DNA from: Thermodesulfovibrio sp.
GTDB taxonomy: Bacteria > Nitrospirota > Thermodesulfovibrionia > UBA6902
Assembly (NCBI GenBank): GCA_026982355.1
Contig: JALSHG010000009.1
Span: 1 to 32,200, forward strand
DNA: 32,200 bases
Direction: 5' to 3'
How positions within the stretch are numbered: the stretch's first letter is position 1; the number at the start of each line of letters is the position of its first letter. Made by a program: the position numbers and the translations under genes. Shown in pieces: positions 4,876 to 18,234 of the stretch. A model generated the notes under the pieces. It saw nothing but the letters and a program-made list of their open reading frames with translations. It did no database searches and had not been told where the DNA came from.

Positions 4876-5184
4876 TTCGACCCTGATTTACTCTTCTATC
4901 ATTTTTTGCCGGACTAACCCTCACCTGTTATGGCGTACTCTTCTGCATGGAAGATACAATCAAAGCCATCTTCTACAGTTAGAAAAAAATAATTGAGTAA
5001 TAACAGATAGTTATGAAAGCACAAAAGGGGCGTGGCACTGTGTATGTCGTCAATGTGCTTATGGAATTATAAGTTTTTTTAATGTATGCGCCTGCCCGGG
5101 CGGCGGTGTTTTTATGCAACCGTAAGGGTCAGAAAACCACTCTGCAGGCTCTTCGGACCGGTTTGTGCAGTATCAAGAACAACC
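4876..5184. other. Gene-free junction between AT-rich and GC-rich regions
   Basis: No gene is supportable here. The first 200 bases keep the AT-rich character of the left part. From about 5091 the sequence becomes GC-rich and begins with a right-half copy of the interspersed repeat. I see no tRNA, integrase or clear attachment site, and no strong intrinsic terminator after 4875. The Fe-S gene on the other strand stops at 5185. Confidence 0.5.
5091..5127 (+). repeat. Interspersed palindromic repeat, right half
   Basis: It contains GGTGTTTTTATGCAACC followed by GTAAGG, the right-end consensus of the family. It is the leftmost member in the window and sits exactly at the composition change. Confidence 0.75.
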
Positions 5185-7639: not shown

Positions 7640-9421
7640 TTATTTTTCAGGTACTATATAATACCATGCGGAGACGGCCTTTCTGCCGTCGACGTCCTCC
7701 CCGGCGCCGTCCCACACGGCAAAACTCACCGGAGTGACTCCGCCCGCTGAAAACACTGCATCGCCTTCCCGTCCGCTGAGGGCCCTCCTGAAGACCACCT
7801 GCCATCTGCCGTTGCGCCACTGACCCCTGCCGCGGACGGGTACTGAGGGGCCATCTTTCAGCCTGAGGGTGCCGAAGCCCGTTGCCGTAAGGTTTTCAAC
7901 GGGGCCGCGGCCGTCCGTCTTCCCGCCCGTGTCAATGGATTCCTGAACATCCGCCTTCCAGAACCATATGTTCACCATTCCCCTGCCGTCCCTTCCCGTC
8001 CCCTGTCCCATCCTGAAGGACGGCTCCGCGGTGTTCCGCACGGGAAACTGCAGCGCCGCGCCGTCCCTGAATTTATTGACACCCAGTGACACGTTCCTGG
8101 TGACATCCTCCCACTCCACTGAAAAGGCGATGTCCCTGTCATTATAAAGCGCCCTTACCCTGACCAGCCTGTCCATGGGGTCGGGGGACCGCCCCACGAG
8201 CATGAGAGGGACGGTGAACGCCCGTGCACGCTTCCAGAGTGCGTCCTCCGGCCGGAGAGGGATGTCGGCGGAGATCTTGCTTGCCGTTATAATGCCCCCG
8301 GCCGCCTGTCCGGCGGATGGGGGCCTGTTCCTTGTCATATACGAGATAATCCTGTCTATCTCCTCATCCGTGAGTCCGGCGCCCCCGGCCTTCCATGCGG
8401 TCATCGGTGTGCCTGTGCGGCCCTCCTTTACAACCCTTGTCAGAAACAGGTCATTGGCGGTCCTCAGGAAGGCAGGGTCCATAATCGCAGGAATGGTGCG
8501 TTTGAAAATCCTGTCGTAAACGCTCTTTTTGCCTGTGCCATGGCAGGCAATACAGTACATCCTGTATAATGTCCCCCCGTCAGGGGGCTCCTCTGCCTCG
8601 GCATGCCTTGTGCGCCTGTACTTTGCCGGCATCTCTTCGGACCTGAGGGAGAGCATGTACGTGGTCAGGAGGTCCGCTTCCCTGTCCGTGAGGTCGACCT
8701 TCATCAGGCTCCCGGGAACAATGCTCCGCGGGTCCCCGAAGTGCTGCCTGAGCCACGAGTAAACCGTCTTTTCCCCCCTGACATACTTCATCGGGAAGTA
8801 GGCGGCGGGTTGTGAGCCCACGCCGTCAAGGTGCTTGCCGAGGACACCGCCGGTCCCGTTGAGCTTATGGCAGCCCTTGCACCCCTTTTCCCTGAAAAGT
8901 CCCGCACCCTCCGCAACCCTGTCTGCGCCGCTGCGTTCCAGCATGTCAAGGTCATGGCACACGGCGCAGGAACTCTGGATATACTTCAGGGGGATAATGG
9001 GGTAATCCCAGTGTGTATCGCGCCCCTCGCCGTGCGCCTCTTTTTTGTTGGTGGCGCGGCCCTGGCCCTGGTGGCAGACAGTGCAGCCGAACCTGTCTAC
9101 GGGATGATTCCGCAGGTAATCACCGCTGTGCAGCCTGTAGGGCATCTCCGCGTCCGCCATCAGGGGATTGTCAACACCCGCATGGCAGTTTGTACAGCGG
9201 TCGACCCTTCCCAGTTCCGGCAGGTATATCTGCTGAATCCCCATGTCCGGCAACACGGCCTCTTTCCCGGCGGCCCTCGCCTTTTCAATAAAGAGTCTCC
9301 TGTATTCAGAGCGGTGGGTCTTCCACCCGGGCGTTGCCTCCCTGTAAGCGGCAAGCAGGGTAAAGGCCAGCACAACCAGCGCTGATATCAGTGTCAATGT
9401 CAGATAGAATTTCCTGTACAT
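7640..9421 (-). CDS. Pentaheme cytochrome c fused to a heme-b gamma-subunit (EB_dh) domain
   Basis: A 593-residue periplasm-facing protein anchored by an N-terminal helix (about 7-26). Five CxxCH heme c sites are at residues 76-80, 113-117, 152-156, 181-185 and 290-294. Residues about 385-593 resemble the ethylbenzene-dehydrogenase gamma domain, the heme-b subunit of type II DMSO-reductase-family enzymes (RVRALYNDRDIAFSVEWED, later FRDGAALQFPV and VNIWFWKAD). The fusion physically joins the bc complex's c-type cytochrome to the gamma subunit of the molybdoenzyme encoded by the cluster, so electrons can pass between cytochrome b/Rieske and the Mo enzyme without a soluble carrier. The start overlaps nothing; the cytochrome b stop is three bases upstream. 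Which Met residues ligate heme b cannot be told by eye. Confidence 0.87.
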   Translation of the reverse strand: MYRKFYLTLTLISALVVLAFTLLAAYREATPGWKTHRSEYRRLFIEKARAAGKEAVLPDMGIQQIYLPELGRVDRCTNCHAGVDNPLMADAEMPYRLHSGDYLRNHPVDRFGCTVCHQGQGRATNKKEAHGEGRDTHWDYPIIPLKYIQSSCAVCHDLDMLERSGADRVAEGAGLFREKGCKGCHKLNGTGGVLGKHLDGVGSQPAAYFPMKYVRGEKTVYSWLRQHFGDPRSIVPGSLMKVDLTDREADLLTTYMLSLRSEEMPAKYRRTRHAEAEEPPDGGTLYRMYCIACHGTGKKSVYDRIFKRTIPAIMDPAFLRTANDLFLTRVVKEGRTGTPMTAWKAGGAGLTDEEIDRIISYMTRNRPPSAGQAAGGIITASKISADIPLRPEDALWKRARAFTVPLMLVGRSPDPMDRLVRVRALYNDRDIAFSVEWEDVTRNVSLGVNKFRDGAALQFPVRNTAEPSFRMGQGTGRDGRGMVNIWFWKADVQESIDTGGKTDGRGPVENLTATGFGTLRLKDGPSVPVRGRGQWRNGRWQVVFRRALSGREGDAVFSAGGVTPVSFAVWDGAGEDVDGRKAVSAWYYIVPEK

Positions 9422-9424
9422 AAG

Positions 9425-10846
9425 CTAATGCACGGGCCACCGGCTCTTCATCCAGTAAAACTCCCAGTTCGGCCCCCTCAGTTCCGTTCCCACATAAGTA
9501 AACATCACGTAACTGACCAGGAACATCGTGAACAGGGCTATGGCCCCCATCCGTGTTGAACCGGTCTTTTTGATCACGCGCAGCGACCACAGAGCCACAA
9601 AGGCAACCCATATGCCCGCAGGGTTTACCATGATGATCAGTATCTGGGGCACATCCGGCCACCAGTTCCTGAACCACCCGAACCTGATCACGAATGCAAG
9701 CAGCCCGGCAAGCACCACGGCTCCTGCAAGTAACGACTGCAGGGCTGTAATCATGCCTTGCCTGCCTGAAAACCATACGCCCGCATGCCCCTCCTCCCTG
9801 TCAAGGTACGGTATCAGTGCAAGCCCGAGTATCGCAAGCGCCGGGGCCGCTATGCCGCCCGTGAAGGCTGAATAGGAGACCATCTCCTGAAGACCCAGGA
9901 AATACCACGGGGCCTTTGCAGGGTTCTCCGGGATAAGGGGATTTGCCATCTCCCGCAGGGGCGCATCCACGTAAAATGAATATACAAGCACCCCTGCAAG
10001 GCAAAGCATGAACACCGCGGCCTCGGCCCGCAGGAGGTCGGGCCAGGAAAACACGCTTTTCTCAACGGCTCCGGCGGGCCTCGATAGTCCGCCGTCTTTT
10101 CTTATCCTCCAGAAATGCACGCCGAGGAATATAAACAGAAGTATGGGCAGTAGCATGATGTGCAGGAAATAGACCCTTATGAGCGTTGCCTTTCCCGGCA
10201 CCGTGCCCCCGAGGAAAAATTCCTTTGCCATGCCTCCGATGTCGAAATACGGCGTTATGCCCAGGGCGTCGGTAAGCTCTTTCGACGACTGGATGATGTT
10301 CGAGACAATGACCAGCGCCCAGTACGAAAGCTGGTCCCACGGGAGCATGTATCCTGAAAGGTTCAGCACAAAGGTGAGTGTCAGGAGCATTATCCCGACA
10401 AGCCAGTTGAACTCCCTCGGCCTGCTGTACGAGCCTGTATAAAAGACCCTTGCCATGTGAAGCATGACGAAGATTATCATGCCTTCGCCGGCCCATTTGT
10501 GCATGTTTCTCATGAGTCTGCCGGCAAAGACGACATACGTTATGTCCTTTACGGAGTTGTACGCGTCCCCGGTCGACGGGTTGTAGTATATCATCAGGAG
10601 GATGCCGGATACTGTGGTGAAAAAGAGCAGGAACAGCGAGACGAGCCCCAGGCCGAAAGTGTATGCGGGCCTGAGGGTGTTTACGTTTGTCCTGACTCCC
10701 TGTATATGCAGGAAGAAGTTGTTCAGCATCACGGCAGCCCGCGACCTGCCGGATATGGGCCTCTTTGTTCTCAGAAGCGAAGCGGCAAAAGAGCCTTTGA
10801 TATTCCTGAGGTTTTCCCTGAATTTATCCATTCCCGGCTGATTCAT
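9425..10846 (-). CDS. Cytochrome b of a bc complex (cyt b6 and subunit IV-like parts fused)
   Basis: A 473-residue polytopic protein. Two heme b pairs are visible: NMHKWAGEGM to MLHMARVF with 13 residues between the histidines, and YFLHIMLLP to GVHFW with 14 between, the b6-type spacing. The C-terminal half carries a quinol-site motif APWYFLGLQE where b6f/bc1 proteins have PEWY; the Glu is missing, as in several menaquinone-linked complexes. It oxidises quinol (or reduces quinone if run in reverse) with the Rieske protein encoded just upstream, 9 bases away. ATG 10846 has GGAGGAA. The next gene, three bases on, supplies the cytochrome c, so Rieske, b and c form one complex in the cytoplasmic membrane. 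Confidence 0.93.
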   Translation of the reverse strand: MNQPGMDKFRENLRNIKGSFAASLLRTKRPISGRSRAAVMLNNFFLHIQGVRTNVNTLRPAYTFGLGLVSLFLLFFTTVSGILLMIYYNPSTGDAYNSVKDITYVVFAGRLMRNMHKWAGEGMIIFVMLHMARVFYTGSYSRPREFNWLVGIMLLTLTFVLNLSGYMLPWDQLSYWALVIVSNIIQSSKELTDALGITPYFDIGGMAKEFFLGGTVPGKATLIRVYFLHIMLLPILLFIFLGVHFWRIRKDGGLSRPAGAVEKSVFSWPDLLRAEAAVFMLCLAGVLVYSFYVDAPLREMANPLIPENPAKAPWYFLGLQEMVSYSAFTGGIAAPALAILGLALIPYLDREEGHAGVWFSGRQGMITALQSLLAGAVVLAGLLAFVIRFGWFRNWWPDVPQILIIMVNPAGIWVAFVALWSLRVIKKTGSTRMGAIALFTMFLVSYVMFTYVGTELRGPNWEFYWMKSRWPVH

Positions 10847-10855
10847 TTCCTCCGG

Positions 10856-11326
10856 CTAAACCTTGAACTTCGTTCCTGTCTTTATCTCCCTGCCGGCATC
10901 CACCACGAGATTGCCGTCAATATGCCTGGTTATCCTGAACCAGGGCAGGTTCCTCGGGGCCGGGCCTGAGATGACCCTGCCGTCCCTGTTGAATTTCGAG
11001 CCGTGGCAGGGGCACATGAATCCCCAGTCAACGGCATTAACAATACACCCCAGGTGCGTGCACACACTGGATACGGCGTAAAGCCCGTCATTATCCGAAA
11101 ATATGAAAACCCGCTTGTCATCGAGTTTTTTCACGGTGCCCACGGGAAAATTCTCCGGCCTGCCGATCTTGAACCTCCGCGACTTTTCATAATAAACATC
11201 GGCCTTTGACATCCTGAATATCCCGGCAAGCAGTGTCAGTGACGACAGTACAACGGCCCATAGAGAGGCCGTGCCGAGAAAGCCCCGTCTTGTTATTCCA
11301 TCCTTGTCGCCGGTCTTGTCATCCAT
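10856..11326 (-). CDS. Rieske 2Fe-2S protein
   Basis: A 156-residue Rieske subunit. The cluster motifs are C89-T-H91-L-G-C94 and C105-P-C107-H108-G-S. The N-terminus has a twin-arginine sequence (TRRGFLGTA) and one hydrophobic helix (about 16-36) that doubles as membrane anchor. It takes electrons from quinol at the cytochrome b site and passes them to the c-type cytochrome. ATG 11326 is preceded by AGGAGG. It stands between the molybdoenzyme beta subunit and cytochrome b in the same direction. Confidence 0.95.
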
Positions 11327-11371: not shown

Positions 11372-11414
11372 CCGCCGGCAGTCTCCCCTGCTCGTTTATG
11401 CCGCATTAAGGTTA
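11372..11414 (-). repeat. Interspersed palindromic repeat, left half (reverse)
   Basis: On the minus strand it reads CCTTAATGCGGCATAAACG followed by GCAGGGGAGACTGCCGG, a close match to the left-end consensus. It lies in the 85-base gap between the beta subunit and Rieske genes and overlaps the beta-subunit stop region by three bases. Confidence 0.75.
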
Positions 11415-12395
11415 ATAGCTGAACATGTCTTTATGCACATAGGCAATGAGCATATCGATAAGTCCCGACTTACCGCCAGCGGCCCGCTTCTGCATCTCCG
11501 CCACGAGGGTTTTCATCGCATCATCCAGGCCCGGACCGAAGAGCCTCCTCAGGTACTCCGCCGGTATCCTCGGCGCCCCGGCAACCCTTCCCTCTTCATC
11601 GAATCCGGGGGGGCTCAGCGGGGGTATGTAGAATACATTCGGCTGTGTCCCGAAGTCGGGCCTCAACGGAAGCGCGACCTTCCACTGCCTGACGAGCCTG
11701 TAGACACGGCTTTCCCGGTCATCCATATAACCAGTGTGCCTTATCCTGCCCACGCACTGTACGGCACAGGCCTGCGGCCTTCCGCTTTCCAGCCGGGGGA
11801 AACAGAATATGCACTTCTCCGACTGGTTTACAGCGGGATTGAAATAGACCTTCTTGTAAGGGCATGCCCTTACGCAGTAACGGTAGCCCCTGCATTTTTT
11901 CCGGTCAACGAGGACGATGCCGTCCTCTTCCCTCTTGACTATGGCCTTCCTCGGACACGCGGCGAGACATGCGGGCCTGCTGCAGTGGTTGCATATCCGG
12001 GGCAGGTAGAAGTAGTAGGCATTGGGGAATATGCCGCCGCCCTCGTCCTCGTCCCAGTTGGGCCCGCCCGCGGGCCGCGCCTCCTTACCGTTGTAATGCG
12101 GAGTCACATGCCCCCCGCCGCCCCTGAAGAGGACGTCTTTCAGGTTGTATTCCCATGGAACGCCGTAATCCTCCAGTGAGGGCACGGCCCCGTCGGTCCG
12201 CACGTTGCCGTCCCTGAACCCGCCGCCGCGTCTTTCCCAGTCGGCGGGATAGCCCCTGCCCGGCCTGGTCTCGACATTGTTCCAGTACATGTACTCCCTG
12301 CCGTTCCTGTTGGTCCACTGGGTCTTGCAGGCCGCTGTGCAGGTCTGGCATCCCAGGCACTTGTTCAAATCAATGACCATTGCAAGCTGTCTCAA
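11412..12395 (-). CDS. Type II DMSO-reductase-family beta subunit (4 Fe-S clusters)
   Basis: A 327-residue electron-transfer subunit of the NarH/SerB/DdhB type. Cluster motifs in order: C13-xx-C16-xx-C19-xxx-C23; CNHCSRPACLAACP; CRGYRYCVRACP, where Tyr replaces one Cys and so suggests a 3Fe-4S cluster; and CIFCF with a later CAVQC. The NQSEKCIFCFPRLESG to CVGRIRHTGY region is diagnostic of this family. There is no signal peptide, consistent with export bound to the Tat-carrying alpha subunit. I choose TTG 12395 because GGAGG lies eight bases upstream, overlapping the alpha-subunit stop; the first in-frame ATG (12380) would lack a ribosome site. It carries electrons between the alpha and gamma subunits. 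Confidence 0.93.
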   Translation of the reverse strand: MRQLAMVIDLNKCLGCQTCTAACKTQWTNRNGREYMYWNNVETRPGRGYPADWERRGGGFRDGNVRTDGAVPSLEDYGVPWEYNLKDVLFRGGGGHVTPHYNGKEARPAGGPNWDEDEGGGIFPNAYYFYLPRICNHCSRPACLAACPRKAIVKREEDGIVLVDRKKCRGYRYCVRACPYKKVYFNPAVNQSEKCIFCFPRLESGRPQACAVQCVGRIRHTGYMDDRESRVYRLVRQWKVALPLRPDFGTQPNVFYIPPLSPPGFDEEGRVAGAPRIPAEYLRRLFGPGLDDAMKTLVAEMQKRAAGGKSGLIDMLIAYVHKDMFSY

Positions 12396-12407: not shown

Positions 12408-15176
12408 CTAAACCCTTTCAACATCCACGGATGCCTCGCTCATGATCTGGTTGCCGTCCCAGAAGGGATTGAAGCTCATGTGCCCGTAATTGCCCGCCAG
12501 CTCCAGTGGGGTTATAATGCCTGCAACGACATTGTTGAACCCCTTGCTGTCCCTGAACTGGAAGTTCTCCCACGCATGCTCCGTCCAGACCACATCCGGC
12601 GGCGTGCCGGGATGGAGCTTTGCCGTGAGATACATCTCGCCGACATCATTGAAAATCCTTATATCGTCGCCGTCCCTTATTCCCCTCTTCCGTGCGGTTT
12701 CCGGGTTTATGTACGCACAGGGCCCCCCCCTCTGGAGCCTGAGATGGTATTTGCCGGTCCTCCATGTGGTGTGGATGCCGTAGCGGGTATGGGGATTGTA
12801 ATAAGCGAGGGGGTACCTGCCCGGCCTGACCGGCCTTCTCGCTGTCGGCACGGCGCATCCCAGCCTCAGGTATATCCCGTGATCCACGTAGAACTGCTGC
12901 CTTCCCGAGAGTGTGAAATACGGGCGTTTCAGATAAACCTGGGGCTCGAAGGGATAAAACGGCCTGTCCGGATACAGCGGGCTTGTCTGGCCTGCCGATG
13001 TCTTCAGTTGCACAAAGCCGCTTCCCTTCAGCGACTCTATATCCGCATCGCCGGTGTTGGCCTTGGACGCCTCCAGCACCCACTCGAGCAGATCTTTCCC
13101 GTTGTTTATTATCTTGTCCCCTACGGTGATAAAGTCCTCGTGTATTGTGTCCAGGTCCCTTGTGACGTTGTATTCCGGGTCGGGGACCTTTGATATCCCT
13201 TTTTTTCTTGCGATCTCCTGTATTTTCCCGGTGATGAGCAGGGCGATCTCCCACTCTGATTTGGCCTCTCCGGGGGGCTTCAGGCCGTCAGGTGGTATCA
13301 TTGCATTTGCAAATCTTGCATATCCCGGATCCGCACGCAGCTCCCATGCCTCGTAGTTGGTCAGGGACGGCAGCACAATGTCCGCAAGAACAGCGGATGA
13401 GTCCATGCGGTAATTCACATTAACGTACAGCTCCACTGAATCCAGCACGGCCTTCTGCGTCTGTTTCTGGGCGTTGTTCCGCTCGAACTTGTTGTCGTGA
13501 AACAGTATCAGGAGCCTGGGCCTGTCGAAATAAGGGAATCCCTCCTTTTTCATGCCCGCGTCAATGAGGGCCATAAGCTCTTTCTTATCCAGTCCCGTCC
13601 TGTCCCTGAGTTCCCCGTCGTCGTAGTGAGAGAGGAAGCTCCTCCACATCCGGCCGTCCATCCACTCGCCAAGGAATCCCGAGCCGAAGCGTGCCGGCTT
13701 GGGCGAGGACAGGGCGCTGAAGTCGCCGAGTTCCCATTCATTGTCTATGTCCAGGCCCCCGCGCCTGCCTGCATGTCCGGTAAGGGCGAGCATCAGTGTG
13801 GCGGTACGGCACGTCAGGGTCCCCCAGAAGTATTTGTGGATGCGGTAGCCCAGCATGATTATCGCGGTCCCGGCCCCGGCGAATCTCCTTGCCTCGGTGT
13901 AGACGATGTCCGGGTGGATTCCCGTGTACTTCCGTGTATATTCCGGGGGGAACTTCGCGCTTTCCTTCTTGATCATCTCAAAGACCGTGGTCACCTCGAT
14001 TTCCTCTCCGGCGCTGTTCCTGACCCTGAACACCCCCTCAAGTGCGGGGCTTGTGTCTCCGAGCCGGAGCGTCGGCTCCCTGCTGCCCATACTCCCACGC
14101 GCCTCCACCGGCCGGGAGGTCTTTTCGTCAAAGAAATAGAATATCCGCTCGTCCCCGCCCCGTATCATGTCCGACTTGCGGAGCAGTTTCCCGTCGCTGA
14201 GCTTCACGAGAAACGGCAGGTCCGTCTGCTCGCGGACGAACCCGGCGTCGTAGAGCCTCTCGCGGATAATGACATTGATCACGGACATGCCGAAAAATGA
14301 GTCCGTGCCTGGTTTGACCGGTATCCAGAGGCTGCTCTGCCTTGCGGTGGGGTTATAGTCGGGCGACAGGGTGACCACCCTCGAGCCACGGTATTTGCCT
14401 TCCCATATATAATGGGCGTCAGGAATCCTCGTAACCGTGGGGTTCGTGCCCCAGACAAGGAGGTAATCCGCCTCGTACCATGCCTCGGACGAGCAGCCCA
14501 CGGTGGAGATGCCGTAGGTGATCGTCGCGCCGGGGAACATGTCCCCCACGGCGCTGGCCACATTGAAGCGGGTTGCCCCGAGCAGTGAACCCAGGCGGAG
14601 GGCGGCGGCCCTCCTTGCAGGCGAGAGTATGCCTGTGCCGGCATATACCATGAGATTGTCAAACTCCCCCCTGCTCACCATATCGACTATCTTTTCAGCT
14701 ATCTCCCGGGTCGCCTCGTCCCAGGATATCCTCTTCCATTTTCCCTCCCCGCGCGCGCCTGTTCTCTTCATCGGGTAAAGCAGCCTGTCTTCATCATAAA
14801 GCGCCTGCGAGTGCAGCGCGCCCTTGTTGCAGCCCCTCGGATTGGCGTCCGGGATACCGGGGCTGATCTGCGGGTAGCCGGCCACCTGCTCTTCCCTTAC
14901 AATACGCCCCGATTTCTCAAAGGTCTGCCACGCGCAGTTGCCCTTGCAGTTTACGCAGTGAAGCGAATACCCGCTGGAGTCACCCCTCGTGAAGCTGAAT
15001 TCGGAACGGTACAGGGAGAGTGTTTCATTGCTGACCCGCTCCACCGGCCCTGTCTTGTCTTCCTCCGGGCGGAAACATCCGGGCACAAAGGCGGCGGCAA
15101 TGCCGGCGGCGCCCATGTTCTTGAGAAACGTCCGCCTGTCCATCCTCCAGAAACCGTGTTGTTTCTTATCAGACAT
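12408..15176 (-). CDS. Type II DMSO-reductase-family molybdoenzyme, catalytic alpha subunit
   Basis: A 922-residue Mo-bis-MGD oxidoreductase. It has a twin-arginine signal (DRRTFLKNMG, residues 13-22), so it acts in the periplasm. A VPGC near residue 34 could also be a lipid-attachment box. The first Fe-S motif is H73-xxx-C77-xxx-C81 with C116, and His in the first position marks the type II clade. D212 in AVGDMFPG is the likely Mo ligand. About 920 residues matches SerA, PcrA, ClrA and DdhA better than NarG or NXR (over 1100). Substrate is not readable from sequence: selenate, chlorate, a sulfur compound and an organic substrate are all possible. It lies between the selenocysteine permease and its beta subunit. 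Confidence 0.92.
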   Translation of the reverse strand: MSDKKQHGFWRMDRRTFLKNMGAAGIAAAFVPGCFRPEEDKTGPVERVSNETLSLYRSEFSFTRGDSSGYSLHCVNCKGNCAWQTFEKSGRIVREEQVAGYPQISPGIPDANPRGCNKGALHSQALYDEDRLLYPMKRTGARGEGKWKRISWDEATREIAEKIVDMVSRGEFDNLMVYAGTGILSPARRAAALRLGSLLGATRFNVASAVGDMFPGATITYGISTVGCSSEAWYEADYLLVWGTNPTVTRIPDAHYIWEGKYRGSRVVTLSPDYNPTARQSSLWIPVKPGTDSFFGMSVINVIIRERLYDAGFVREQTDLPFLVKLSDGKLLRKSDMIRGGDERIFYFFDEKTSRPVEARGSMGSREPTLRLGDTSPALEGVFRVRNSAGEEIEVTTVFEMIKKESAKFPPEYTRKYTGIHPDIVYTEARRFAGAGTAIIMLGYRIHKYFWGTLTCRTATLMLALTGHAGRRGGLDIDNEWELGDFSALSSPKPARFGSGFLGEWMDGRMWRSFLSHYDDGELRDRTGLDKKELMALIDAGMKKEGFPYFDRPRLLILFHDNKFERNNAQKQTQKAVLDSVELYVNVNYRMDSSAVLADIVLPSLTNYEAWELRADPGYARFANAMIPPDGLKPPGEAKSEWEIALLITGKIQEIARKKGISKVPDPEYNVTRDLDTIHEDFITVGDKIINNGKDLLEWVLEASKANTGDADIESLKGSGFVQLKTSAGQTSPLYPDRPFYPFEPQVYLKRPYFTLSGRQQFYVDHGIYLRLGCAVPTARRPVRPGRYPLAYYNPHTRYGIHTTWRTGKYHLRLQRGGPCAYINPETARKRGIRDGDDIRIFNDVGEMYLTAKLHPGTPPDVVWTEHAWENFQFRDSKGFNNVVAGIITPLELAGNYGHMSFNPFWDGNQIMSEASVDVERV

Positions 15177-15193
15177 TGTTTATGACACCCCGC

Positions 15194-16285
15194 TTAATCA
15201 TTTGCCAGGTTCAGTTTTTCCTTTTCCTTCACCTCGAGCACCAGCCTGTATCTCCGGAAATACAGGATATGGGCCGTCAACATGGCTGAGCCGAAAAAGG
15301 TCATGCCCATGGCAAAGCTCCCTATGGACAGCGTGGGCCAGCCGGACATGAACGCCCCCGTGGTGCACCCCCCGCCTGTAAGCGCCCCCACGATCATAAG
15401 CACCGAGCCGATAAAGATGGTGGCAAGACGCAGGATGAGCCTCTCTCCGAACGCCGCCCTGAACAGGGGGGTGACCTTCTCCTGTTTTATCGTACTTGCA
15501 AGCAGGCTGCTTACAAACGCCCCGGGGAAGACGCCCAGTATGAGCATGGCGCGCCACGCGGTGTTGTCGCTCACGCCCGGCACGCTCTGCATCGTCCAGT
15601 CGAAAAACGAGGCAATGTGAGCGCCCAGGGCCAGGAAGCTTCCGGAGAACGAAAGGTACTGTCCCTGTGCCGTTGTTACGAATATCATCAGCCCCGCTAT
15701 AATGCCTGTCGGAAGCCAGCCCCATTCCCTCTTCAGCACGGGCAGTTTTTCCCGCCCGCCGTCGAACTTTCTGGCAGGGTCTATCCGGTGGAGAAAAAAA
15801 CTCAGGCCGAGGAACATTACGCCCAGCGCGATGGCGAGATAACCGTACCTGACCTTCAGCACCATAGGCAGGGTGATAAACCGCTGTTCCCCGCCGAGTC
15901 CGCTGAGCACGGGGAAGAACACATCGTACACATAGACGCCTGCGAGAAGCCCGAGCACCGCCGCGAGTATTAAAAGCTTTCCGCTGCCTGACCTGGCAGC
16001 GCATGTCCCGGGTCAGAGCCCGGCCAGGGCCATGCCCACGCCGAAGGTCACGCCGCCCGCGAGATGCCCGATTCCGAAGTACCCGTTGATCTTCGGCACC
16101 ACGCCGAACTCAGCCAGGTCGCTGATACCATAGAGCAGGGCCGCCACGGCAAGCCCTGAAAACATAAAATTCATGGGCTTCAGGTCCCTCAGCAGAAGGG
16201 TCCCCATCACCCTCGAGTACCTGACCAGTCCGCCCCTGTGCAGGGCGAATCCGAATGCCGCACCTATTAAAAAACCAATCCACAT
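15194..16285 (-). CDS. YeeE/YedE-family permease with selenocysteine at the conserved pore cysteine (UGA read-through)
   Basis: A 363-residue polytopic membrane protein of the YeeE/YedE family, relatives of which take up thiosulfate (TsuA) or are linked to selenium metabolism. The N-terminal half has ALHRGGLVRYSR (the usual GFC cysteine is missing) and TFGVGMALAGL, then an in-frame UGA at codon 91 (16015-16013), then PGTCAARSGSGK. The family motif is GMxLAGxCPGT, so UGA replaces the invariant Cys. The second half has the matching GALTGGGCTTGAFMSG with Cys307. Reading through UGA joins two halves that are each incomplete alone, with no frame change, and a SECIS-like hairpin follows at 15982-16001. 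GGGAGGGG precedes ATG 16285. It lies directly upstream of the molybdoenzyme gene. Confidence 0.87.
15982..16001 (-). promoter_or_regulatory. Predicted bacterial SECIS hairpin of the YeeE/YedE permease
   Basis: In transcript sense, 12 bases after UGA starts a perfect seven-base-pair stem (CGCUGCC with GGCAGCG) with the six-base loop AGGUCA. The loop differs by one base from the AGGUCU loop of the E. coli fdhF SECIS bound by SelB, and its G is the second loop base, 20 bases downstream of UGA. Confidence 0.85.
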
Positions 16286-16316: not shown

Positions 16317-16370
16317 CCTTACAGTTGCATAAAACACCGGCGGCGGGCAGAGGAGTCTGCCGGTTTATGC
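16317..16370 (-). repeat. Interspersed palindromic repeat, short complete form
   Basis: It has CCTTACAGTTGCATAAAACACCG at one end and a diverged GGCAGAGGAGTCTGCCGGTTTATGC at the other. It fills the 95-base gap between the two-domain rhodanese and the permease. Confidence 0.7.
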
Positions 16371-16380
16371 TCTCCCGCCC

Positions 16381-17373
16381 CTATTCTTCAACCTCCCAGT
16401 CCTCAACCGACCCTTTCTTCGTGGTCTCCACTGCAAGGCCGGTATCCGCGGACCAGTCTTCAAATGACCCGCCGTAGACACGGACGTTATCATACCCGAG
16501 CATCCTGAGCACCATGAATCCATATGTTGACCGCCCTATGCCTATGTTGCAGTAGGTCACTATCTCCTTGTCCGGGGTGACGCCGGCCTCCCTGAGTATC
16601 CCGCGCATCTCCCCCGGGTCCTTCACTGTGTCGTCACCGGCCAGCGAACTCCACTGAAGGCTGATTGCGCCGGGAATATGCCCCCCTCTCGGATTGCCGG
16701 CCGGGTTTATGCCCAGGTACTCCTCAAAACTCCTCATGTCAAGGAGTACCAGTTTTTCCCTGTTGTCAAACAGCCACTTGCGTGTCGCCACCATTTCGGG
16801 CCTGGGAGAGGCGCGGAAGGTCTTTTTACGCACCGGGGGCGGCTTGGCGGTCAGCGGCCTTCCCTCTGCCGCCCACCTCTCGAATCCTCCCTTCAGGACC
16901 TGTACATTGTCATGCCCGAAGTATTTCAGCATGGCCCATATGATGCTGGCGTGCGGAAACTTGATGCTGTCATAGACAATCACCCTCGTGTCCGGGCCGA
17001 TGCCGGCCCCGCCGAATATCCTCCCCGCGGTTTCCGGGGGGACGGCAAACCCGTGCTTCCTCTTGTAATCGAGTATCTCCTGCAGGTCATCCGGATTACG
17101 GACCATGTCCCTGGATATATTCACGGCGCCCGGAATGTGCAGCTTCCCGTAGTCTTCCGCGGGCCGGGCGTCGACTATGACCACATCCGGCCGCTTTAAG
17201 AGAGCCGCAAGTTCCTCTGTCGAGACCAGGAAACCCCGTGTTGTTTCAGCAGCGGTTGAGGATTTCTTTTCCTCTTTCCTGCTCTTGCATCCCTGGAGAG
17301 CAGGGACGGAGACAGCGAGAATGATGATAAGAACCGCTGTGACGACCCTTTTTTTCAATAAACCCGTCTTCAC
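16381..17373 (-). CDS. Two-domain rhodanese (thiosulfate sulfurtransferase type) lipoprotein
   Basis: A 330-residue exported sulfurtransferase. Residues 1-29 form a lipoprotein signal ending in LQGC (C29). The first rhodanese domain (about 46-175) has Asp135 (VYDS) in place of the active Cys and is non-catalytic, as usual for tandem rhodaneses. The second (about 195-316) has TYCNIGIGRS with catalytic C275, an ordinary Cys unlike the single-domain selenocysteine rhodanese of the same cluster. It should move sulfane sulfur between thiosulfate-like donors and an acceptor at the periplasmic face. The start is GTG 17373, with a G-rich ribosome site. It is followed after a repeat by the selenocysteine permease, which suggests donor-to-transporter cooperation. 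Confidence 0.92.
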   Translation of the reverse strand: MKTGLLKKRVVTAVLIIILAVSVPALQGCKSRKEEKKSSTAAETTRGFLVSTEELAALLKRPDVVIVDARPAEDYGKLHIPGAVNISRDMVRNPDDLQEILDYKRKHGFAVPPETAGRIFGGAGIGPDTRVIVYDSIKFPHASIIWAMLKYFGHDNVQVLKGGFERWAAEGRPLTAKPPPVRKKTFRASPRPEMVATRKWLFDNREKLVLLDMRSFEEYLGINPAGNPRGGHIPGAISLQWSSLAGDDTVKDPGEMRGILREAGVTPDKEIVTYCNIGIGRSTYGFMVLRMLGYDNVRVYGGSFEDWSADTGLAVETTKKGSVEDWEVEE

Positions 17374-17385
17374 AATCCTGCACCC

Positions 17386-17751
17386 CTATAAACACGACTT
17401 GGACATCTTCTTTGCTCCCTCCAGCGCCGCCGCATCATTGACCAGTATCTTGTTCCCCTTGAGAATCCCCTTGACCACGACCTGTTTGCCGAATCCGCTG
17501 TCCAGCTTCCACTGCGGCGCCCTCCTGAGCTCCACCTTGTAGAGCTTTTTGTCGGCGGTGAAGATAACCCACGGGCTGTCGCCGGAGTCTTCGAGTGTGC
17601 AGTCCGTAAGCCTGCCGTCGGCCATGCATTTCTCACTGACCAGTTGCCCCCTTATGAGCACCTCTTTGCCGGCCGCCCATGCCGCTGCACTTAGCGACAG
17701 GAGGAAAAGCATCATCACCACGGCTGTGAGTGCAGGGATATGTCTCTTCAT
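17386..17751 (-). CDS. Small exported cysteine-containing protein of unknown function
   Basis: A 121-residue protein with a clear signal peptide (residues 1-26, ending AAWA). The mature part has KCMADGRLTDCTL, an inner beta-rich stretch (VEL, VVVKGIL, KILVND) suggesting a small beta-barrel or OB-like fold, and a C-terminal SCL. The three cysteines could bind metal or form disulfides. I do not recognise the family. It lies 12 bases upstream of the two-domain rhodanese and is first in the leftward operon after the ArsR gene. An AT-rich stretch at 17771-17790 has a TATAAT-like hexamer on this strand but no convincing -35 partner. Confidence 0.75.
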   Translation of the reverse strand: MKRHIPALTAVVMMLFLLSLSAAAWAAGKEVLIRGQLVSEKCMADGRLTDCTLEDSGDSPWVIFTADKKLYKVELRRAPQWKLDSGFGKQVVVKGILKGNKILVNDAAALEGAKKMSKSCL

Positions 17752-17904: not shown

Positions 17905-18234
17905 TTATCCCGCCTTCTCCATCCTCTTTACTATCCTCTGGCCCTCCTGGAGCTGTTCGATAAGCACCTCTTTCATGAGGTTGCACGCCTGGGTCACCTT
18001 GGAGTTTGACACCCTGTAGTAGATGTTGACCCCCTCTCTCCTTTTTGCCAGTATGCCTTTCTGCCTCATGACCGCAAGGTGCTGCGAGACATTCGCGGCG
18101 GATATGCCCAGTATCCCGACAAGCTCGCCGACCGTCAGCTCACGGTCCTTCAGTGCATGCAGTATCTCAAGCCTTTTTGCATTCCCCAGGGTTTTGCATA
18201 TCTCCGCCTGGATCTCATATATCTTCTTATTCAT
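17905..18234 (-). CDS. ArsR/SmtB-family transcriptional regulator
   Basis: A 109-residue winged-helix repressor. The helix-turn-helix is at about 35-57 (VGELVGILGISAANVSQHLAVMRQKG), followed by the wing (LAKRREGVNIYYRVS). The ELCVCDL arsenic/zinc motif of classic ArsR is replaced by ELTVGEL; the only cysteines are C13 and C84. That excludes the textbook ArsR metal site and leaves a dithiol- or persulfide-type sensor as a possibility, by analogy with BigR/SqrR, although the cysteine positions differ. A perfect 16-bp palindrome lies 10 bases upstream of the ATG, which suggests autoregulation. It is divergent from the RNA/ArsS operon and 153 bases before the sulfur/molybdoenzyme operon it probably controls. 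Confidence 0.92.
   Translation of the reverse strand: MNKKIYEIQAEICKTLGNAKRLEILHALKDRELTVGELVGILGISAANVSQHLAVMRQKGILAKRREGVNIYYRVSNSKVTQACNLMKEVLIEQLQEGQRIVKRMEKAG

Follow-up and report, generated by a model that had tools for sequence, protein, structure and literature searches.

Among the transporters of the YeeE/YedE superfamily, TsuA/YeeE of Spirochaeta thermophila (PDB 6LEO/6LEP/8K1R) has three pore cysteines at positions 22, 91 and 293. Of these, Cys91 and Cys293 are described as essential to TsuA, and SoxT1B likewise depends on its conserved cysteines (PMC11582611); the title of PDB 6LEP describes the C91A mutant of TsuA as 'inactive'. SoxT1A and SoxT1B belong to the same family, carry three cysteines and no selenocysteine (Sec), are accompanied by an ArsR-type regulator and rhodanese-type partners, and are linked to sox/shdr genes (PMC11582611). 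YedE/FdhT (NF033796), of the same superfamily, has a link to selenium, and YedE was proposed as a selenium-related transporter (PMC9312934). A Sec-containing YeeE/YedE family has already been listed, with the motif GUxSG and the example WP_012471001.1 (PMC13188914, PMC9312934). Sec-YeeE is thus a known kind of protein; the gene analyzed here, yeeE-U, carries its predicted Sec at [LF]UPGTC, which differs from the listed motif.

The gene lies in a 32,200-nucleotide stretch of Thermodesulfovibrio sp. DNA, referred to below as the window, and is defined by three features:

15194..16285, minus strand: yeeE-U, encoding a complete 363-aa membrane protein of the YeeE/YedE (Sulf_transp) family with Sec as residue 91
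16013..16015, minus strand: in-frame UGA decoded as selenocysteine (Sec91), the counterpart of TsuA Cys91 in the alignment
15982..16001, minus strand: SECIS hairpin CGCUGCC AGGUCA GGCAGCG, 7 bp, GG in the loop, 11 nt after the UGA

The sequence-only reading had proposed that two open segments in one frame, split only by UGA, form a single full-length YeeE/YedE gene, and the frame bears this out: from 16285 to 15194 on the minus strand it runs from ATG to TAA with TGA at 16015-16013 as its single internal stop, and readthrough yields 363 aa. The product matches Pfam Sulf_transp/YeeE-YedE over residues 31-334 (E 3e-25), and its PF04143 profile score of 89.8 passes the gathering score of 27 bits. 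The UGA indeed replaces the cysteine of the family motif, as had been suggested, occupying its place in GMALAG-L-[C]-PGTC, and homologues have Cys at the same residue. Across three species of the window's genus, 335 of the 363 codons are identical at the amino acid level, and 97 of these differ synonymously, which indicates selection on both sides of the UGA. Decoding of UGA as Trp, or an altered genetic code, was rejected because the homologues carry Cys and selB of the same genome itself ends in TGA.

A GTDB genome scan yielded 41 yeeE loci, 39 of them intact (40 including the window). At residue 91 the 40 intact homologues carry TGA in 17 cases and TGT or TGC in 23, so that relatives show both Cys and UGA at this one residue. 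The 17 UGA proteins share 43-96% identity with that of the window, and their genes occur in Nitrospirota, Nitrospinota and alpha-, beta- and gammaproteobacteria; the Cys genes occur in Aquificota, Nitrospinota, one further bin and one bin labelled Thermaerobacter (Bacillota). A maximum-likelihood tree implies at least three changes between UGA and Cys. In this tree three Nitrospinota Cys genes are nested within a UGA clade, beside the UGA gene L083. A full selA is missing from their genomes, and these genes look like Sec-to-Cys replacements that followed loss of the Sec trait. Frameshifts or additional stops, which would have spoken for decay, were absent from the relatives except for the broken copies L116 and L117 (truncated or frameshifted) and the 5'-truncated L026, which belongs to a neighbouring genus where tRNA-Sec was not found either. 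No yeeE homologue was found in the plasmid and phage collections searched, and PADLOC returned no match.

The predicted 7-bp hairpin with loop AGGUCA proved real; when the peptide it encodes was recoded synonymously, its stem length was matched with P = 0.008 and its stability with P = 0.005. The longest stretch of yeeE free of differences across three congeneric species measures 44 nt and coincides exactly with the UGA plus the hairpin. In every UGA gene a stem of 6-8 bp with a GG-containing loop begins 11-12 nt past the UGA, and a comparable stem was detected in only 1 of the 22 Cys genes tested (L109, a chance exception with a different loop). In the 14 UGA sequences from outside the window's genus, 94.9% of stem cells pair, versus 28-58% with a slid partner, and the covariation score of the hairpin in this set exceeds all 500 shuffles, with compensatory changes being few (2 pairs). 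An Rfam search of the SECIS region and the sel locus gave sub-threshold matches to vertebrate lncRNA families only.

The genome of the window encodes adjacent selA and selB as well as a selD whose own reading frame contains a UGA at the customary position; SelA, SelB and SelD all score above their cut-offs. Across the collection, selA is present in 13 of the 17 UGA genomes versus 2 of the 23 Cys genomes (Fisher p 3e-5); when only phylogenetically independent transitions are counted, of which there are only 3 pairs, the sign test for this association is not significant. Within 10 kb of yeeE, sel genes were found at seven UGA loci and at no Cys locus:

L087: selA-selB near yeeE
L089: selA-selB-selD near yeeE, with tRNA-Sec on the same contig
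L091: selB near yeeE
L092: selB-selC near yeeE
L094, L095, L114: selD near yeeE

This arrangement suggests that genes of the Sec machinery are inherited together with the UGA-containing yeeE operon at these loci. ARAGORN identified tRNA-Sec in the genomes of L079, L082, L083, L087, L089, L091, L093 and L094 and inside locus L092. The search for sel genes that the sequence-only reading had called for thus recovered selA, selB and selD in the window's genome, but not selC: tRNA-Sec was not found in three genomes of the genus (G000, G022, G023) in non-exhaustive searches with two covariance models (Rfam and our own) and patterns, and ARAGORN, covering 68% of the window's genome, gave no convincing candidate, the two relaxed hits being unlike real tRNAs. 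Both the window's genome and that of L077, from the same genus, nevertheless carry selA; the missing tRNA-Sec is probably due to a gap in the assembly or to divergence of the tRNA. Taken together, UGA almost certainly encodes Sec in this yeeE family, and we infer selenium incorporation in the window's organism itself.

A motif shared upstream of yeeE, selA and selD was considered as the mark of a selenium regulon and rejected, as it belongs to an interspersed repeat, TTTTATGCAACTGTAAGG, with inverted flanking segments and 388 hits in 1.79 Mb, often located just upstream of genes. Seven copies lie in the window, at 16334 on the minus strand and at 5110, 19549, 21598, 22864, 24905 and 31475 on the plus strand.

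AlphaFold2 modeling of yeeE-U, based on 35 homologues, gave a pLDDT of 89.5, and the model superimposes on the TsuA structures with Z 33.6-35.8. In the alignment to TsuA, U91 corresponds to Cys91 and C307 to Cys293, and V21 takes the position of Cys22. Cys95, four residues past Sec91, is invariant together with Sec/Cys91 in the 35 aligned sequences; since a helix begins at residue 92 in the model, residues 91 and 95 are probably close to each other. The placement of Sec at a pore cysteine, as initially proposed, therefore agrees with the UGA/Cys alternation, the hairpin, the sel genes and the TsuA alignment and fold, and the pore itself departs from that of TsuA in lacking a Cys22 equivalent and having an extra cysteine at position 95. 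Given these two differences, yeeE-U is not merely a TsuA in which selenium replaces sulfur.

Identity to TsuA is about 24%, and the NCBIfam TsuA equivalog model scores 50.8 bits versus its cut-off of 400; no TsuB/YeeD was seen beside yeeE-U. The YedE/FdhT model (NF033796) likewise yields 30, its cut-off being 350. With the listed Sec-YeeE family, yeeE-U shares PF04143 and a predicted Sec, while its motif, [LF]UPGTC (LUPGT in the window), is distinct from GUxSG when compared by published motif. In a related genome, a two-gene YeeE form (L036) contains an in-frame UGA at GUPSG within a short PmpA-like protein corresponding to the C-terminal half, where relatives have GGCPSG. This UGA represents a second Sec position in the superfamily and fits the published GUxSG; judged by motif, it suggests that in the listed family Sec occupies the other pore-cysteine position, although in canonical TsuA-type proteins the motif of the N-terminal half would also be compatible with GUxSG.

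The genomic context of yeeE-U comprises the following genes, all on the same strand:

17905..18234, minus strand: ArsR/SmtB-type regulator, kept in part of the operons
17386..17751, minus strand: small secreted Cys-containing protein, no Pfam/NCBIfam match, kept in part of the operons
16381..17373, minus strand: two-domain rhodanese with lipoprotein-type signal LQGC and catalytic-loop sequence YCNIGIGRS, conserved next to yeeE
12408..15176, minus strand: catalytic (alpha) molybdopterin subunit of the type II DMSO-reductase family, carrying a Tat-like signal, conserved
11412..12395, minus strand: iron-sulfur beta subunit, TIGR03478 above cut-off
10856..11326, minus strand: Rieske protein
9425..10846, minus strand: cytochrome b, ExtP/ExtQ-like
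7640..9421, minus strand: cytochrome c fused to a heme-b gamma domain, TIGR03477/EB_dh-like

The recurring order is ArsR, small secreted protein, rhodanese, yeeE and molybdoenzyme alpha and beta subunits, with rhodanese-yeeE-alpha-beta as the core, and the rhodanese and molybdoenzyme operon is common to four phyla. The alpha subunit, whose nearest solved structure is perchlorate reductase PcrA, aligns with TIGR03479 over its full length but falls just below the cut-off (926.8 versus 984.75 bits), whereas the beta subunit passes its model. The linkage to a type II molybdoenzyme distinguishes the operon from that of SoxT1A/SoxT1B, and a literature search for an operon joining DMSO reductase, rhodanese and YeeE in Nitrospirota returned nothing. 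The same operon, with the Cys form of yeeE, is present in 18 Aquificota genomes without selA, and its role is therefore not Sec synthesis. Two loci display additional genes. In the Aquificota locus L101 (17781-21080), a second molybdoenzyme-like set, composed of a TtrB/DsrO-like iron-sulfur protein, a membrane protein and a further ORF, lies downstream of the operon and is consistent with sulfur metabolism. In the betaproteobacterial locus L092 (11103-12090), a second small rhodanese-like ORF and a thioredoxin-like ORF are situated between yeeE and the molybdoenzyme.

The combination of a rhodanese with a TsuA-fold protein points to sulfane sulfur. In the mechanism whose substrate, transport direction and relay chemistry we infer, SelB and the hairpin would recode the UGA, making Sec residue 91 of a membrane protein with the TsuA fold, at what would be the second of the cysteine positions lining the TsuA pore. 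Sec91, Cys95 and Cys307 would then most likely pass a sulfane-sulfur species, be it thiosulfate, polysulfide or the sulfur of a persulfide, across the membrane in a relay, and sulfur could be exchanged with the lipoprotein rhodanese and the periplasmic molybdoenzyme of the operon; the ArsR-type repressor may respond to the relayed sulfur species. That yeeE-U moves or relays a sulfur compound appears probable, and as a whole explanation a selenoprotein with Sec91 in a TsuA-fold pore relaying sulfane sulfur is the reading we favor with moderate confidence. The effect attributed to selenium by the sequence-only reading remains conditional: a selenol in the path would change how sulfane or selenium compounds are passed.

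Transport of selenium compounds themselves (selenite, selenide or selenosulfur species) by the same selenoprotein, with the molybdoenzyme acting as a selenate-type reductase, seems unlikely. The role proposed for YedE (PMC9312934), the presence, at three Nitrospirota loci, of selD immediately upstream of yeeE, and the resemblance, below cut-off, of the rhodanese and cytochrome b to ExtH/ExtP of the Geobacter selenite/tellurite operon would accord with it; yet the linkage to sel genes is also explained by the Sec requirement of yeeE itself, and in the 18 Aquificota genomes, which lack selA and have the Cys form, the operon has some role other than Sec synthesis. Slightly less likely still is that Sec91 and Cys95 form a site of redox chemistry or sulfur transfer coupled to the molybdoenzyme, which would make the protein a membrane sulfurtransferase or sensor and not a bulk transporter. 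The invariance of Cys95 together with Sec/Cys91, the ArsR gene in the operon and the involvement of SoxT1B of H. denitrificans in signalling to ArsR-type repressors (PMC11582611) are compatible with such a site, but the protein has the transporter fold of TsuA and conserved pore residues. That the UGA is a plain stop (in a pseudogene, through misassembly, or with decay or truncation of the product in a genus in which no tRNA-Sec was found) is very improbable: the truncated L026 in the neighbouring genus and the broken L116 and L117 could be cited for it, and against it stand the codon conservation among the three congeners with its synonymous differences, the lack of further stops, the conserved hairpin and intact selA, selB and UGA-containing selD.

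Returning to the sulfane-sulfur relay, its most far-reaching form is offered only tentatively, as somewhat short of an even chance: a self-contained Sec-dependent relay, in which a selenol-centred pore connects the periplasmic rhodanese and molybdoenzyme with the cytoplasm and which, in Pseudomonadota, is co-inherited with a selA-selB-selC/selD cassette. Known Sec residues serve mainly redox catalysis in enzymes. If the proposed reading is true, a selenol in a transport pore would, given its naturally occurring Cys counterparts in the same operon, allow a test of the contribution of selenium to the movement of sulfur across membranes. It would also bear on whether transport by TsuA and SoxT proceeds by hydrogen bonding or by covalent relay. 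The gene further marks a conserved yeeE-rhodanese-molybdoenzyme operon that occurs in sulfur-related lineages.
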